Positions 57,610-62,981 of a DNA stretch of 64,000 nt are shown here, piece after piece. Within the stretch, counting starts at the first letter, position 1. Each line of letters starts with the position of its first letter. A model generated the notes under the pieces. That model had not been told where the DNA came from. It worked only from the letters and a program-made list of their open reading frames with translations, and searched no databases. Source of the stretch: Nocardioides luteus. Its GTDB lineage: Bacteria; Actinomycetota; Actinomycetes; Propionibacteriales; Nocardioidaceae. Location of the stretch: NCBI RefSeq assembly GCF_000960475.2, contig NZ_JZDQ02000008.1, positions 62,001 through 126,000 on the forward strand, written 5' to 3'. The position numbers and the translations under genes were made by a program.

Positions 57610-58035
57610 TCCTGCAGTGTGCCTGACGTGCCTCGGTCGGTGTCGCGTCGGCGCCGAGGACTGTCACCACGACGACGCCCGAGCAGAACGAGCTCATCGT
57701 CTGACGCATCGAATCGGGGATTGCGATCCGGGACTGGTGGATGTGGGGAGCAGTGCTGAAAGGGCCATGTGTCTCAGGCTCGTCGCGTCCGCAGCCGGTC
57801 GCTGTCCGGTGTCCACAGCGCTCCAGCCGATCGGCGCAGCATCGGCCACTCGCACCTCCGTCCACCACCGCCTCAAGCCTCGACACAGTTGGTGCGTCCC
57901 ACTGGCGGCGGAAGGACGCAGGTTCGGAGCGCGGTGTTCGCGGCGTGGCCGTGGCGGCCCAACAGCCGATAGAGATGTAAGACGAGCAGAATCGCAGGAG
58001 GGCCGCCCTGCCGCCCGATGCGTAGCTCCATCGAC
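57610..58035. other. Intergenic region between hrpB and the lower-G+C island
   Basis: About 425 bases without a recognised gene; it covers the change from high to lower G+C. I see no tRNA or clear att-like repeat. The right part ends at the stop of the first HEPN-like gene. Confidence 0.4.
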
Positions 58036-59040
58036 TTACAAGACTATATTCGGAGATAAGGCTTCAAGCCCCTGCGACAAACTCCAAGCTAGGCCGCGAA
58101 ACTCCGCTATCGCGCGCCGGAGGTAAGCGGCTGACACGTCAAGCTCGTCACCCTCTACAAGCTTTCCTTGATTGGCGGCAAGACATTGCAGGTACTGGTT
58201 ACTGACGCGACCGCCATGATGAACGAAGACGTTGCGTCGTTCCACGATCTCGTGTACTGTCTGCAAGTTGCCTTTGTCCCCGAGAAGGCTCGCGAAAAAC
58301 TTCTGGTAGCCCGGAAAGCCCTCTCGGGCTAGCCGGCTCAGCTTGTCGTTGACAATCGCTGAGCGTAGGTCGTCCAAGTTTTGGGCATCAAGAACGTCGC
58401 GACTGCTGAACTGTCGGTTCACGTTGCGCAGAATTTGTGGACGCTGTTCGATTGCTGTCTTCGCAGAGAGTGACAGGAACGTGTCGAATGCAGCCACGAC
58501 CGCCATGAGGAGGCCACGCCTTAGCGATGGCCCCGGAGACCCGACATGAGCTAACCCCCGCCACACGCTGTTGAAGACCGCAGCTTTGTCAAGATCGCCA
58601 GGTATTAGCGGGTCAAGAGCAGTGCGTAGTTGGGCTTCCCAGGCCTCGTCGTCGAGGTCCACTTCCATGAAGAATACAACTTCAAATCGCGTAGATTTCG
58701 GGTCTGTAGCTGGTTCGGTGTCCTCGATTATCTCGATCACTCGTTTGTCGCGGGGGTCGCTGAACGACTCTCTCAAGACTTTGGTCTGGTGTCGACCGAT
58801 GGCTTGAGTAAACTTCTCCCTGACCGCATCTGGAAGAGGGTATTCAAGGCGGTCGACAACCCGGCGGATTCGATCGGTTGGGGAATCTTCGATCGCCAAT
58901 AAGCTGGAGGCACGTAGCACGTCCTCGAACGAACTTAGGTTCGCGTCGAAGGCTAAGTAAGTGTCGAGGGGGCCTGACATGGATGGCGGCGCCGGAACGA
59001 TCAATGGCAGCGCGTTCGGCGTAATCTTCTTCTCGTTCAT
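58036..59040 (-). CDS. HEPN-like domain protein of unknown function
   Basis: A 334-residue protein of unknown family. Near its end it has a strong HEPN-type motif R269-N270-x3-H274 in VERRNVFVHHGGRVS, the RNase signature of the HEPN superfamily, on a helix after another long helix (SLLGDKGNLQTVHEIVE). The start is taken at ATG 59040; a GTG extension to 59079 exists. The base composition is unusual for the window (32 of 60 G+C at 58381-58440), which suggests recent acquisition. Together with the neighbour on the same strand it looks like a two-gene defence unit. The target and trigger are unknown. Confidence 0.7.
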   Translation of the reverse strand: MNEKKITPNALPLIVPAPPSMSGPLDTYLAFDANLSSFEDVLRASSLLAIEDSPTDRIRRVVDRLEYPLPDAVREKFTQAIGRHQTKVLRESFSDPRDKRVIEIIEDTEPATDPKSTRFEVVFFMEVDLDDEAWEAQLRTALDPLIPGDLDKAAVFNSVWRGLAHVGSPGPSLRRGLLMAVVAAFDTFLSLSAKTAIEQRPQILRNVNRQFSSRDVLDAQNLDDLRSAIVNDKLSRLAREGFPGYQKFFASLLGDKGNLQTVHEIVERRNVFVHHGGRVSNQYLQCLAANQGKLVEGDELDVSAAYLRRAIAEFRGLAWSLSQGLEALSPNIVL

Positions 59041-59362
59041 GGCAGCAAGAGTGTCATGGCCATCCAGAATGCACCGCACATCAGCAGATCCCGGGGCTCA
59101 AAGGACCTCGAGCAGCCGGCGGTAAGCCGAAACCTGCAGAACTGCACTGGTCGCAGGGTGTGCGACCGTTTCGGGCTGCGGCGCAACCCGTCGATGTCTG
59201 GACCCGCTGCTCTCGTGGGGACGTTCGAAGGTGTCTCCCTCAGAATTGGGGCGCGCTCGCAGAGGCTCCGGTTGTCTGCCTCAGTGAAAGTGGACCGAAT
59301 GACATGACAGTTCTAGTAGCCGCTTCGAGGGACGGGATGCATCGCGAGGCGCGACTGAAGGC
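59041..59362. other. Spacer between the two HEPN-like genes
   Basis: About 320 bases without a recognised gene. It contains the leader of the 334-residue gene and the 3' end of the 625-residue gene to the right. I see no obvious RNA or repeat. Confidence 0.35.
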
Positions 59363-61240
59363 TCAAGGGGTGTTGCCTCTTGGGGTTTGTCGCTGGAACG
59401 GGTTTGGCTCGCGGCTATCGTTCCCTTGACCCTTTCGCAAGCCTTCGAGAATGGCAGTTAGCCCGGCTGCGATCTCAGCCATGCCCGCAGCCAACGTAAG
59501 GTCTCGAACTTCCCTGAATCTGCGGACGCGCTCGACGACCCGCATATCCTTGGTTCCGTTGAAGACCAACATGGCGACGCCGCGCCACGTGTCGCCCTTC
59601 CAGACGGCCTCGCCGTCAATCCGAATCGTCGAGACAACTCGTGCGAGCGCGAGGACGTCGTCGACCTGGTTGGCTGAGGGTGGTCTTCGGGCGTATTCAC
59701 GGAACGGCTGTAGTGGGGCTTCCCAAGAGTGAGCGCTGCCGTTCGACGATTTGATGGCTGCCTGGGCGTGGGTTAGGTCCTCTGGGGATACGGCCGCGAT
59801 GGCCGCAGCGGCAGTCGACAACTGTTGCGGGTCGCCGATGGCGGCTATGCGAAGTACGGTGCCCTCCCGTTCGACGGTTGTGTCGCTAAGACCCAGGAAG
59901 CCGAGCATCAGGCAGATGACGCTGAACAGATCTCGCTCGGGAGTGTGTCGGGACAGCTCGAGCTCGATACCTTGAGTCGCTGTGGCGCGTGTTAGTGCCA
60001 TCATGAGGGACACTGCTGTTTGGAAGTAGCCCAGCACGGCATCAAGGAACTCGTCGATGCTAAGACGGAACTCCTCACCCGGAGACAAGTGGGTGATGAA
60101 GTGGTCGTCGACGATGTCGTAGTCGTAGTGAGCCGCCGCGTGGCGGACAGGCTCAGACAGGTTCTCCTCGAGGAGCAGGTCCGGCCAGCGCTGAATCGCG
60201 CGCTTGATGAGCTTGCCAGCACCCTGCTGGTGGAGGCGTTCATAGTCGGCGTCATCCGTCGCGAACATCGTGGCCAAGCAGTGGCGGATGATGCCGTCAC
60301 GACATTGCATAACTAGGTGAAGGGCGGTGGTCGCGGCCTCGAGGTCATTGCTCTCGTCGATGGTCGAAAGCTTGAATGCCGCGGTGGAGAACTGGGCGGT
60401 GACCACACCGTGCCTGGCCTGCCACTTCGGCGAGTTGCAGACAGGTTGGAGTTGGCCCATATCGCCTTCGGCGATGTCCGCGACTTCGAGCGCCTGCTCT
60501 AGATCAAAGAGGACCAGCATGAGGTGACGCATCAAGAGGAGATTTAGTCCGATTCCCATTTGCGCTGGATCAGTGGATCCGCCGGTCAATTTTCGAAGTC
60601 GTTCATCGAGGGTCGCCAACATCTCGTCGCCCCCTGCGGCGGCGCGCGCTGATTCGCCTATCTGACTGAACGCGGCGTGCCCGGCGAGCAAGCGTTCAAT
60701 TTCGCCGATCTCGTTCAACTTGTCGATCTCGTCGGCCGCGGCGTCGATCAACGGCTGCGCGCGGGCCTGCAAGTCCTGAGCAAGCAGGATCGTCTCCGCG
60801 CCGAGAGCTTCTGCAAAGATCCCATAGCCCTGGCGCAGAAGGCTTAGCGAACGCCCAAAGCTGCGGGCTCGATTGGTTCCCGGGCGTGGGTGACGCCGAG
60901 ACCAATGCGCTACTTGAGCGTCCAGCTTGGCAAACGCCTGAACAACCTCATGCGCATCTCGCCCTCTCCGAGCAGCATGTGACAACGCTTCGCGTATGTC
61001 TGCGATCAGCTTCGGGACCGACGCGATGGCGTCTGTGAGGTCGTCCTTGGCCGGCGGAAGTGGTACGTCGGCATCCAGAAGTTCTCGGAGGATCCTCCGG
61101 CGGCGTTCGAGGTCCGGCTGTGTCTCATGTCGACGGGGCAGGAGTCCGCATTCGGGACACGGCTGAGTCATCAGCCTGGTGCCACCGCACCTGTCGCATG
61201 TGATGCTTGCAAAAGACAGGCTCATCCTTCCTCGAGGCAT
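59363..61240 (-). CDS. Zinc-ribbon protein with a HEPN-like motif, unknown function
   Basis: A 625-residue protein of unknown family. It opens with a zinc ribbon, C15, C18, C28 and C31 (CDRCGGTRLMTQPCPECG), then a helical region. A motif R366-x4-H371 (EPVRHAAAHYDYDI) is again of the HEPN type and lies in a helical block. The rest shows no clear domain. ATG 61240 is preferred, with AAGGGAG upstream. Low G+C codon use contrasts with neighbours. Paired with the 334-residue HEPN-like gene on the same strand (about 320 bases apart). A defence or toxin role is inference from motif and context. Confidence 0.65.
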   Translation of the reverse strand: MPRGRMSLSFASITCDRCGGTRLMTQPCPECGLLPRRHETQPDLERRRRILRELLDADVPLPPAKDDLTDAIASVPKLIADIREALSHAARRGRDAHEVVQAFAKLDAQVAHWSRRHPRPGTNRARSFGRSLSLLRQGYGIFAEALGAETILLAQDLQARAQPLIDAAADEIDKLNEIGEIERLLAGHAAFSQIGESARAAAGGDEMLATLDERLRKLTGGSTDPAQMGIGLNLLLMRHLMLVLFDLEQALEVADIAEGDMGQLQPVCNSPKWQARHGVVTAQFSTAAFKLSTIDESNDLEAATTALHLVMQCRDGIIRHCLATMFATDDADYERLHQQGAGKLIKRAIQRWPDLLLEENLSEPVRHAAAHYDYDIVDDHFITHLSPGEEFRLSIDEFLDAVLGYFQTAVSLMMALTRATATQGIELELSRHTPERDLFSVICLMLGFLGLSDTTVEREGTVLRIAAIGDPQQLSTAAAAIAAVSPEDLTHAQAAIKSSNGSAHSWEAPLQPFREYARRPPSANQVDDVLALARVVSTIRIDGEAVWKGDTWRGVAMLVFNGTKDMRVVERVRRFREVRDLTLAAGMAEIAAGLTAILEGLRKGQGNDSREPNPFQRQTPRGNTP

Positions 61241-61498
61241 ACTCGTCTCCCTTCATCTGGTCTTGAGGCACAAGTCGTTTGGGGGGCCGCTGGTCGCGCT
61301 GTTGCCGATCCTGCTGCTGCATCGAGCACCTGGGTGGACGTAGGGATCACGCACCGACTTCACGCGCTGATCGGTCAGACCCTGTCGTGCGTCCATAGTC
61401 CCAGCGAGGGGAGTCAGCCGCGACGAAATTGAAGCGGATCCAGAGGCTCCCGCCCGCTCGTCGGCGGAGCCATACCGTTGCAGCGCGTCGTTCTGGGC
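61241..61498. other. Non-coding stretch left of the IS110 element
   Basis: About 260 bases between the zinc-ribbon gene start and the probable left part of the IS110 element. It holds the AAGGGAG ribosome site of the zinc-ribbon gene, but no gene that I can support. Confidence 0.4.
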
Positions 61499-61499
61499 T

Positions 61500-61722
61500 A
61501 CTAGAGGATTCCGGTAGGACCGGCGTCCGGCCAGACTCGGTCCAGGTGCCCGGTGGGCTCGCTCTCTATTGGGCTGCCCACCCGCCCGTGCGGGTGTGGC
61601 TCGATTCCGGTATGCAGCCCCCGGGCACCGCTGACGAGGCGTGGCTCAAGAGGGGACTGCCCAGCTCGTAGTAGCAATGCCCACCTCGCCGTCCCAACCG
61701 GAACGAGCGCAGGGAGTAGCGC
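61500..61722 (+). ncRNA. Candidate bridge RNA region of the IS110 element
   Basis: The non-coding end before an IS110-type recombinase gene is where bridge RNAs are encoded in this family. Here several stems are visible: CCGGT-AGG-ACCGG (61511-61523), CACCCGC-CCGT-GCGGGTG (61579-61596) and an enclosing GGTGCCCGG (61545-61553) with CCGGGCACC (61621-61629). The ten-base sequence GATTCCGGTA occurs twice (61507 and 61603), on either side of the first big stem, as would suit two loops with guide sequences. The exact ends are unknown. Confidence 0.45.
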
Positions 61723-62922
61723 ATGGAGCAGGTCGTCATCGGAGTCGATCCCCACAAGTTGTCCGCAACGATCGAGGTCGTCGACCACCAGGAGCAACTC
61801 CTCGGATCTGGTCGCTTCACCACCGATCAGGCCGGCTACGCCTCGATGCGCGCCTACGCCAAGGCCTGGCCGGGTCGAATCTGGGCAGTCGAGGGAGCCA
61901 ATGGTGCCGGGCGTCCACTCGCCCAGCGGCTCCTCGAAGCCGGCGAGCATGTCGTGGACGTGCCAGCCAAGCTCGCCGCACGTGTCCGGCTCTTCGACAC
62001 CGGCCACAACCGCAAGACCGATGCCCACGACGCCCACGCAGTCGCCATCGTGGCCGTGCGCACGACGAACCTGCGGGTGCTGAAGGTCGACGGCGCGCTC
62101 GAGGCAATGCGGATGCTCACCGACCGACGCGAAGCACTCACCAGGCGTCGGGTTCAAACCGTGTGCCGACTTCAGGCGCTGCTCGCAGAACTCCTGCCTG
62201 GTCAGGTCAAACGCGACATCACCACCGGTCAGGCCAAGGCCATGCTGGCCACGGTCCGCCCCAGGGACATCGCCGGAAAGACCCGCCGCCGCATCGCCGC
62301 CGAAGAACTCGCCGAACTGATCGCGGTCGAGGCGAAGATCAAGAAGGCCACCGCAGAACTCAAGGCGATGGTCCTGGCACGCGATTCACGGCTGATGGAC
62401 ATTCACGGGGTCGGTGCCGTGGTGGCCGCCAGAATCCTCGCCGACGTCGGCGACATCGCCAGGTTCGCCGACCGCAACCGGTTCGCGTCCTGGACCGGCA
62501 CCGCGCCGCTGGATGCCTCCTCTGGTGAGCAGAACCGGCACCGACTCTCACGTGCCGGGAACCGCCGGGTCAACCACATGATCCACATCGCCGCGGTCAC
62601 CCAGCTGCGCCTCGACACCGACGGACGCGCCTACTACCGGCGCAAGCGAGCAGCCGGGAAGAAGCCCCAAGAAGCGCTGCGATGTCTCAAGCGACGCATC
62701 TCAGACGCCATCTACAAGCAGCTCGTCAAAGATGCCGCACGCGCTTGTGAGGCGGACCCGGGAGGGCACTACGGGGCGTCTCAAGAATCCAGCGCGGTCG
62801 ACCTGCCCCCGCGAATCGACACTTCGGATCAGCCACTCCCGGACCCGCAGCCCCGACGCTACGCCGCACCGCCCGCCACCCGAAAGAGCCCGGTGGCCGG
62901 ACCCTTCGCAACCGCTGGTTGA
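61723..62922 (+). CDS. IS110 family transposase/recombinase
   Basis: A 399-residue recombinase with a RuvC-like DEDD domain: D9 in GVDPHK, E57 in AVEGANGAG, D100 and D103 in KTDAHDAHAVA. The C-terminal Transposase_20 domain contains LMDIHGVGAVVAARILADVG and the serine-bearing segment ASSGEQNRHRLSRAGNRRVN, which provides the catalytic nucleophile. The protein is about the usual length and appears intact. GGGAGTAGCGC precedes the ATG. The tail beyond residue 340 is proline-rich and dispensable-looking. It should move the element using a bridge RNA. Confidence 0.9.
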   Translation: MEQVVIGVDPHKLSATIEVVDHQEQLLGSGRFTTDQAGYASMRAYAKAWPGRIWAVEGANGAGRPLAQRLLEAGEHVVDVPAKLAARVRLFDTGHNRKTDAHDAHAVAIVAVRTTNLRVLKVDGALEAMRMLTDRREALTRRRVQTVCRLQALLAELLPGQVKRDITTGQAKAMLATVRPRDIAGKTRRRIAAEELAELIAVEAKIKKATAELKAMVLARDSRLMDIHGVGAVVAARILADVGDIARFADRNRFASWTGTAPLDASSGEQNRHRLSRAGNRRVNHMIHIAAVTQLRLDTDGRAYYRRKRAAGKKPQEALRCLKRRISDAIYKQLVKDAARACEADPGGHYGASQESSAVDLPPRIDTSDQPLPDPQPRRYAAPPATRKSPVAGPFATAG

Positions 62923-62981
62923 CAACAGAGGGGAGCCGGAAAGACGTACCTTTCCGCACGCGCTTGCCGTCAGTCAGGGCT

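Follow-up and report, generated by a model that had tools for sequence, protein, structure and literature searches.

A predicted bridge RNA in an IS110-group insertion sequence of Nocardioides luteus, and the integron-like gene strings at which it may be aimed

The 64,000-nucleotide stretch of Nocardioides luteus DNA analysed here (the window) carries near its right-hand end an insertion sequence of the IS110 group, ~1.44 kb in size and composed of a left non-coding end of 224 nt, a gene for a 399-aa recombinase and a right non-coding end of 15 nt (Table 1). The arrangement, a long left end as opposed to a short right end with the RNA upstream of the gene, is that of the IS110 group; the layouts of the non-coding ends in the IS110 and IS1111 groups are set out in PMC11208160. 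The marks of the IS1111 group, namely subterminal inverted repeats of 7-17 bp and a long right end, were not found at the ends of this element, which show only the letters GGCT/AGCC and the 15-nt right end. The element is present as a single copy in its own genome, and the copy number gives no sign of recent movement.

Table 1. Features of the element, its predicted RNA and its target in the window
Feature	Position	Strand	Details
IS110-group insertion sequence	61498..62937 (left edge 61498 or 61499, set by exact core)	+	homology limits, variable outer flank, empty sites
Left non-coding end (LE)	61499..61722	+	224 nt
IS110 recombinase	61723..62922	+	399 aa, ORF without internal stop; PF01548 and PF02371
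Right non-coding end	62923..62937	+	15 nt; contains left donor sequence
TTGACA (-35 of putative circle promoter)	62919..62924	+	conserved; overlaps stop codon
Candidate -10 box GAGGAT	61504..61509	+	predicted, weak consensus; 18 nt after TTGACA in excised circle
Ten-mer GATTCCGGTA, copy one	61507..61516	+	upstream of predicted RNA start; not conserved
Predicted bridge RNA	61517..61693	+	about 177 nt, both ends predicted (start 61516/61517, end near 61693)
5' stem-loop	61517..61543	+	both-side changes in 3/10 pairs; 99.0% of cells paired
Target-binding stem-loop	61545..61629	+	both-side changes: basal helix 5/11 pairs, tip helix 4/9 pairs
Donor-binding stem-loop	61633..61693	+	stem helix 98.6% of cells paired; both-side changes in 1/8 pairs
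Left target guide UAUUGGGC	61567..61574	+	same sense as left target 61491-61498
Right target guide AUUCC	61604..61608	+	complementary to right target 62938-62942
Left donor guide GAGGGGA	61650..61656	+	same sense as right-end DNA 62928-62934
Right donor guide GUAGUAGC	61668..61675	+	pairs with element start GCTACTA, 61497-61503
Left half of interrupted target (GCGTCGTTCTGGGC)	61485..61498	+	flank variation, empty sites
Right half of interrupted target (GGAAAGACGT)	62938..62947	+	rebuilt right half: site score 13.6
Second target-like site (GCGTCCCACTGGCGGCGGAAGGACGC)	57893..57918	+	other edge of low-GC cargo

The recombinase matches PF01548 (2.7e-21), the DEDD RuvC-like domain, and PF02371 (1.3e-22), the Tnp domain with the conserved serine, and scores 172.7 bits with the NCBIfam model NF033542, "IS110 family RNA-guided transposase", for which the cut-off is 140. 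Residues E57, D100, D103 and S267 each align with the identical residue in the IS621 chain, and D9 was assigned from the GVDPHK motif only. The relatives of solved structure found by sequence were IS621 and ISCro4 only, and PF01548 matches once in the element's own genome. Judged by its domains and uninterrupted frame, the protein is an intact member of the IS110 family, as a first-pass annotation of this DNA had proposed. Two weaker matches were observed in the same gene: one of 42.3 bits to a TIGR-Tas endonuclease model (61723-62919; cut-off 100) and a sub-threshold Rfam match of 39 bits (cut-off 45) to the Mycobacterium sRNA ncrMT1302 at 62743-62838 (-), antisense to the tail of the recombinase.

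A collection of 102 loci, in records that carry the names Nocardioides, Terrabacter, Phycicoccus and others, was used for comparison; by the cut chosen, a homologous left end is present in 89 of them (82 distinct), and 13 are without a full left end. Left-side homology begins at 61482-61500 in most relatives, and the homology of the non-coding right end stops by 62937-62950. The sequence common to nearly all relatives runs from GGCTACTAG (61496 on) to TTGACAACAGAGGGGAGCC (62937), and the letters outside it vary in the manner of a target flank. When joined, the flanks of the element look like homologous empty sites of other genomes, which show a target close to GCGTCATTCTGGGCGGTATGACGC. A comparison of flanks with empty sites had been recommended earlier as a way to find the target core. 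It revealed the target, as the same locus is empty in three of the four genomes fetched (GCGCGTCGATCTGGGCGGAATGACGC, GGGTCATTCTGGGCGGTATGTCGC and GCGTCAATGTGGGCGGTATGTCGC) and the fourth (G038) has no such site at the locus, but it did not fix the exact recombination core, which seems to be C followed by a variable base.

At L038 (about 2692-2776) and L009, an element is inserted within the left end of another copy, precisely where the left target guide is encoded, so that the guide gene itself looks like the target. At L051 (2671-2759), a partial second left end lies immediately 5' of the complete one. In L031 and L032, TACT follows directly after the right end, and their targets may have a CT core as the donor does.

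In the non-coding stretch upstream of the recombinase, the first-pass annotation had noticed an enclosing 9-bp stem, an inner 7-bp hairpin and a repeated ten-mer, and all three are there. The 9-bp stem (GGTGCCCGG/CCGGGCACC, 61545-61553 with 61621-61629, seen in the repeat search as 12-nt arms with 92% complementarity) closes the target-binding stem at its base, with the 7-bp hairpin (CACCCGC/GCGGGTG, 61579-61585 with 61590-61596) at the tip. An alignment of 73 related left ends gave a common fold in which a 5' stem-loop is followed by two stems with internal loops and 98.0% of cells are paired; 13 of its pairs are changed on both sides, where shuffles gave 7.7 such pairs and slid versions 3-8. 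The donor stem is too invariant for such a test and adds little independent support for the fold, and the lone window sequence folds only moderately better than its shuffles (z -2.30; 5/200 as good). An Rfam search gave no bridge-RNA match; Rfam is not known to include a bridge-RNA family.

The two ends of the element appear to be matched in length. TTGACA is found in 56 of 63 right ends, and the distance from its position to where pairing starts in the RNA, summed over both ends, is 31 nt in 46 of the 63 (including L018, which is without TTGAC), 32 nt in 13 and 30 nt in four. Right-end and left-end lengths compensate for each other, a tightness reached by one of 5000 permutations. No -10 consensus was seen at a spacing of 16 or 17. 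The spacing of TTGACA is as for a promoter that would be rebuilt in the excised circle, and the joined ends are a candidate promoter.

The ten-mer GATTCCGGTA occurs in two copies only on both strands of the 64-kb window (shuffle mean 0.02). Copy one coincides in part with the candidate -10 box and the predicted start of the RNA. Among 74 left ends, including that of the window, the two places agree in all 10 letters in the window's left end alone; two left ends have 8 letters in common and the other 71 have 6 or fewer. The proposal that the repeat marks guide segments held for copy two (61603-61612), which contains the right target guide (61604-61608), and was rejected for copy one, which falls upstream of the predicted RNA and is not found as a repeat in relatives.

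The guides themselves were located by covariation with their DNA partners. A scan of flank positions against RNA columns in 75 left ends, with 62 usable right ends for the target test and 63 for the donor and promoter tests, gave its strongest same-sense diagonal between 61567-61574 and the left flank and a complementary diagonal between 61604-61608 and the right flank. Some other cells score equally high, for example 61495 with 61506 or three RNA columns with one right-end position, and these we take for group-membership or single-row effects. For the guide tests, seven distant left ends and L102 were excluded from the 82 distinct ones, and 74 were used. The z-scores, which are inflated by shared ancestry because the guide classes cluster on the recombinase tree, are 8.2 for the left target guide (positions outside the element; -1.2 and -2.0 in slid registers), 7.9 for the right target guide (-1.8 and -3.1), 8.7 for the left donor guide (0 and, on one side, no variance) and 8.0 for the right donor guide in register 61668-61673, for which the two registers tried, both on the 3' side, gave 0 and -2.9. 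A register of 61669-61674 for the right donor guide was rejected with a score of zero, the signal lying one base to the left. Matches to own partners exceed those to shuffled partners for the left target guide (3.14/5 versus 1.98, n=74), the right target guide (3.32/5 versus 2.46, n=62), the left donor guide (6.76/7 versus 6.06, n=63) and the right donor guide (4.67/6 versus 4.49, n=73), and for each of the four, none of 5000 shuffles reached the observed value. In the window itself, the left pairing of UAUUGGGC with TTCTGGGC has, by eye, six Watson-Crick pairs and one wobble out of 8, and the right pairing of AUUCC with GGAAA has four of 5, also by eye; G61609 may also pair with C62937, which would extend the right target guide.

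With its IS110-group layout and with target and donor guides placed in the predicted RNA by covariation, the region that had been called bridge-RNA-like at first sight bears that description out. A structured 5' leader that regulates translation of the recombinase only, and holds no guide, would by itself look alike in structure and would likewise lie directly upstream of the start codon; however, a leader gives no reason for loops that covary with outside flanks and with the element's other end, and we consider this account very improbable.

A further question is whether guide and target match through shared ancestry only, with related elements that have similar left ends residing in similar sites. 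The guide class and target class are concordant in 58 of the 59 loci classable for both (69 loci on the recombinase tree), and the two main guide classes require five changes on the tree of 69 rows. The guide-class groups on the tree are few and a sign test is underpowered, as its three independent pairs, all concordant, give p 0.25 and are too few for significance. Against ancestry alone, the signal is found in a single register and vanishes when the target registers are slid; guide and target match letter for letter at the single loci L051 (TAGTGGGC), L016 (ATCGCGGC) and L067 (CAGCCGGC); and the right donor guide has compensating changes in L055, L067, L068, L072 and L090. Right ends with GAAGGGAGCC are paired with the guide GAAGGGA in 22 of 22 cases. 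Shared ancestry as the whole explanation is highly unlikely in our judgement. That the protein reads the element ends as DNA, with the RNA as a by-product, is suggested by the short inverted letters GGCT/AGCC that flank the ends and is extremely unlikely, since the target side varies with the guide and PMC11208160 and PMC11187229 describe the family as RNA-guided.

Collectively, the limits of the element, the conserved fold, the covariation of four guides, the near-fixed spacing of TTGACA and the empty target make it very probable that 61517-61693 encodes the bridge RNA of the insertion sequence. According to the known mechanism, the recombinase would excise the element as a circle, in which TTGACA of the right end would be joined to the left end and the RNA would be switched on. 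The RNA would then bind the recombinase and pair through one loop with the chromosomal target and through its second loop with the ends joined in the circle, and strand exchange by the recombinase would take place at a short core.

The target recurs well beyond this locus. At three or fewer mismatches, the 22-letter target has 22 copies in 21 of 96 genomes, and its reversed control has none; the copies lie mostly at loci without shared flanks and are not fully independent, because two pairs share a right flank. The 1 kb to the left of the target is poorer in GC than that to the right in 20 of the 22 copies. Within the window's guide class, 18 of 19 occupied sites show the same deficit (p 7.6e-6), and no GC contrast is found outside that class (16 of 37 loci, p 0.22); loci entered this test if at least 700 bases were present on either side. 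Two other accounts of the target were rejected: a high-copy repeat, as the own genome has no copy of a 20-letter version at three or fewer mismatches, and an attachment site of the phage type accompanied by an integrase of its own, as there is no PF00589 match inside the window.

GC content in the window is low from about 58000 up to the element. In blastn, this cargo matches genome G001 only to the cargo edge (69 bases), with homology ending at 57919; tblastx adds a few short weak matches of 23-39 residues among the matches listed. The last 2 kb before the site have no blastn match in four genomes, although the right flanks of these match at 84-89%. At 57893-62947, the window holds one site-bounded unit, whose two genes, 58036-59079 (-) and 59363-61240 (-), belong to no known family. 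Neither gene has a PADLOC, Pfam or NCBIfam match, so no defence content was seen in this cargo.

In relatives, such sites occur in strings. To the left of the terminal site in 20 regions, 42 further half-sites were found in the same orientation and two in the opposite one, distributed over 15 of the regions. In two more strings, 13 of 13 and 10 of 11 sites point the same way. Half-sites of this kind are found repeatedly between variable genes, in a single orientation and often next to an Xer-like recombinase gene, in the manner of integron joints. Integron attC sites end in GTTRRRY; 24 of the present sites show the motif GGCGGNATGACGC instead, and GTTRRRY is absent from these 24. The nearest gene left of the terminal site has a PADLOC match in 9 of 18 regions (e.g., ThsB, HerA, HamA and PDC-S19), some of them generic ATPase matches, and the gene to the right has one in 1 of 10, a weak one; seven of ten chosen left neighbours were scanned. 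A wider scan of 91 frames chosen from 136 open frames, with the best 25 of 88 Pfam and the best 25 of 99 PADLOC families, gave defence models and ordinary enzymes alike. At loci L151-L174, integron-like gene strings were seen with same-orientation GGCGGNATGACGC sites between the genes and defence genes among them. These data from relatives suggest that the element is directed to joints in integron-like gene strings, which include some phage-defence genes.

The Xer-like tyrosine recombinase beside one string (L171:8570-9472, +) has 301 aa and a PF00589 match. It scores 48.6 bits with TIGR02249, the integron integrase model, against a cut-off of 265, and 100.6 with the XerC model against 335; by these scores, the recombinase of the strings is not an IntI-type integrase as found in integrons. 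At 12 fetched loci with an Xer-like gene (L175-L186), a site lies within about 1.5 kb in nine, and the 10 sites there all have one orientation relative to the gene, at 116-118 nt before it in four of the 12 loci and at 165 nt in a fifth; for scale, the first 57.8 kb of the window hold three such sites on both strands. A relative of the Xer-like protein at 1e-40 is found in 55 of 196 genomes, 17 of these having at least 82% identity over nearly the full length; in the window's genome, the only relative has 37% identity.

The guide classes differ in where their targets fall. With a site model derived from the 22 copies that had been found with the consensus of the window's (first) class, rebuilt targets qualify as sites in 24 of 34 loci for the second guide class, 9 of 21 for the window's class and 0 of 7 for others, with a background of 3 of 2121. 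Around elements of the second class, 25 sites lie in the element's orientation and two against it; around those of the window's class the counts are four and one. From the site scores and the GC contrast, the window's class (TTGGGC) therefore probably targets the string end, a point that comes mainly from the GC contrast, and the second class (GCGGC) the inner joints.

We lean, by a modest degree, towards a broader reading of these observations, in which the present IS110 clade lives as an RNA-guided parasite on an integron-like system, so far undescribed, of Nocardioides and its relatives. The system would consist of strings of variable genes, including defence genes, separated by short same-orientation sites (GGCGGNATGACGC after a variable half) and moved by an Xer-like tyrosine recombinase that has a site close before its gene start, with the TTGGGC class directed to the string end and the GCGGC class to inner joints. 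Movement of the cassettes is something we infer. Searches of open-licence PMC papers, at the level of listed abstracts, gave no description of such a cassette system.

The bridge RNA is thus of an ordinary, known type, and the target system may be undescribed. The relatives constitute a natural IS110 set in which all four guides of the bridge RNA change with their DNA partners, including retargeting between two classes of site, and such a covarying set helps to fix the guide registers of actinobacterial bridge recombinases. More unusual is the target system, for the guides, once read, pointed to candidate cassettes with defence genes among them.

Compared to IS621, as described in PMC11208160 and PMC11208158, the element shares several features. 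First, the recombinase domains, the catalytic residues and the long left end are alike. Second, the RNA, here predicted, has a 5' stem-loop and two internal loops, the target loop preceding the donor loop, with the same guide polarity. The joined ends, which in IS621 form a promoter, here form a candidate one. The predicted length of ~177 nt equals the about 177 nt given for IS621 in PMC11208160, an agreement that rests on predicted RNA ends. Unlike IS621, the present element is actinobacterial, its protein has 399 aa versus 328 aa in the matched IS621 chain, its left donor guide has two letters more than the donor (GGGGACTGCC versus GGGGAGCC), its core apparently consists of C and a variable base where IS621 has a strict CT, and its targets are others. 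The upstream non-coding RNA (here predicted) and the position of the bottom-strand match 5' of the top-strand match are shared with the seekRNA of ISEc21 (PMC11187229), which also has a circle promoter where the present element has a candidate one; that paper reports natural redirection through a changed guide for ISMch6. ISEc21 has its target in IS3-family transposase genes (PMC11187229), whereas the site here is attachment-like.

The element also resembles the IS1111-attC elements in its recombinase superfamily and in having cassette recombination sites, here putative ones, as targets. IS1111-attC elements insert in integron cassette sites, and the RNA of the IS1111 group lies downstream; here, the RNA lies upstream and the sites are without the attC motif. 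The strings themselves differ from integrons in their site motif, GGCGGNATGACGC, and in an Xer-like recombinase that scores far below the integron-integrase cut-off, and are like integrons in having short sites of the same orientation between variable genes and a recombinase gene near a site in 9 of 12 loci.
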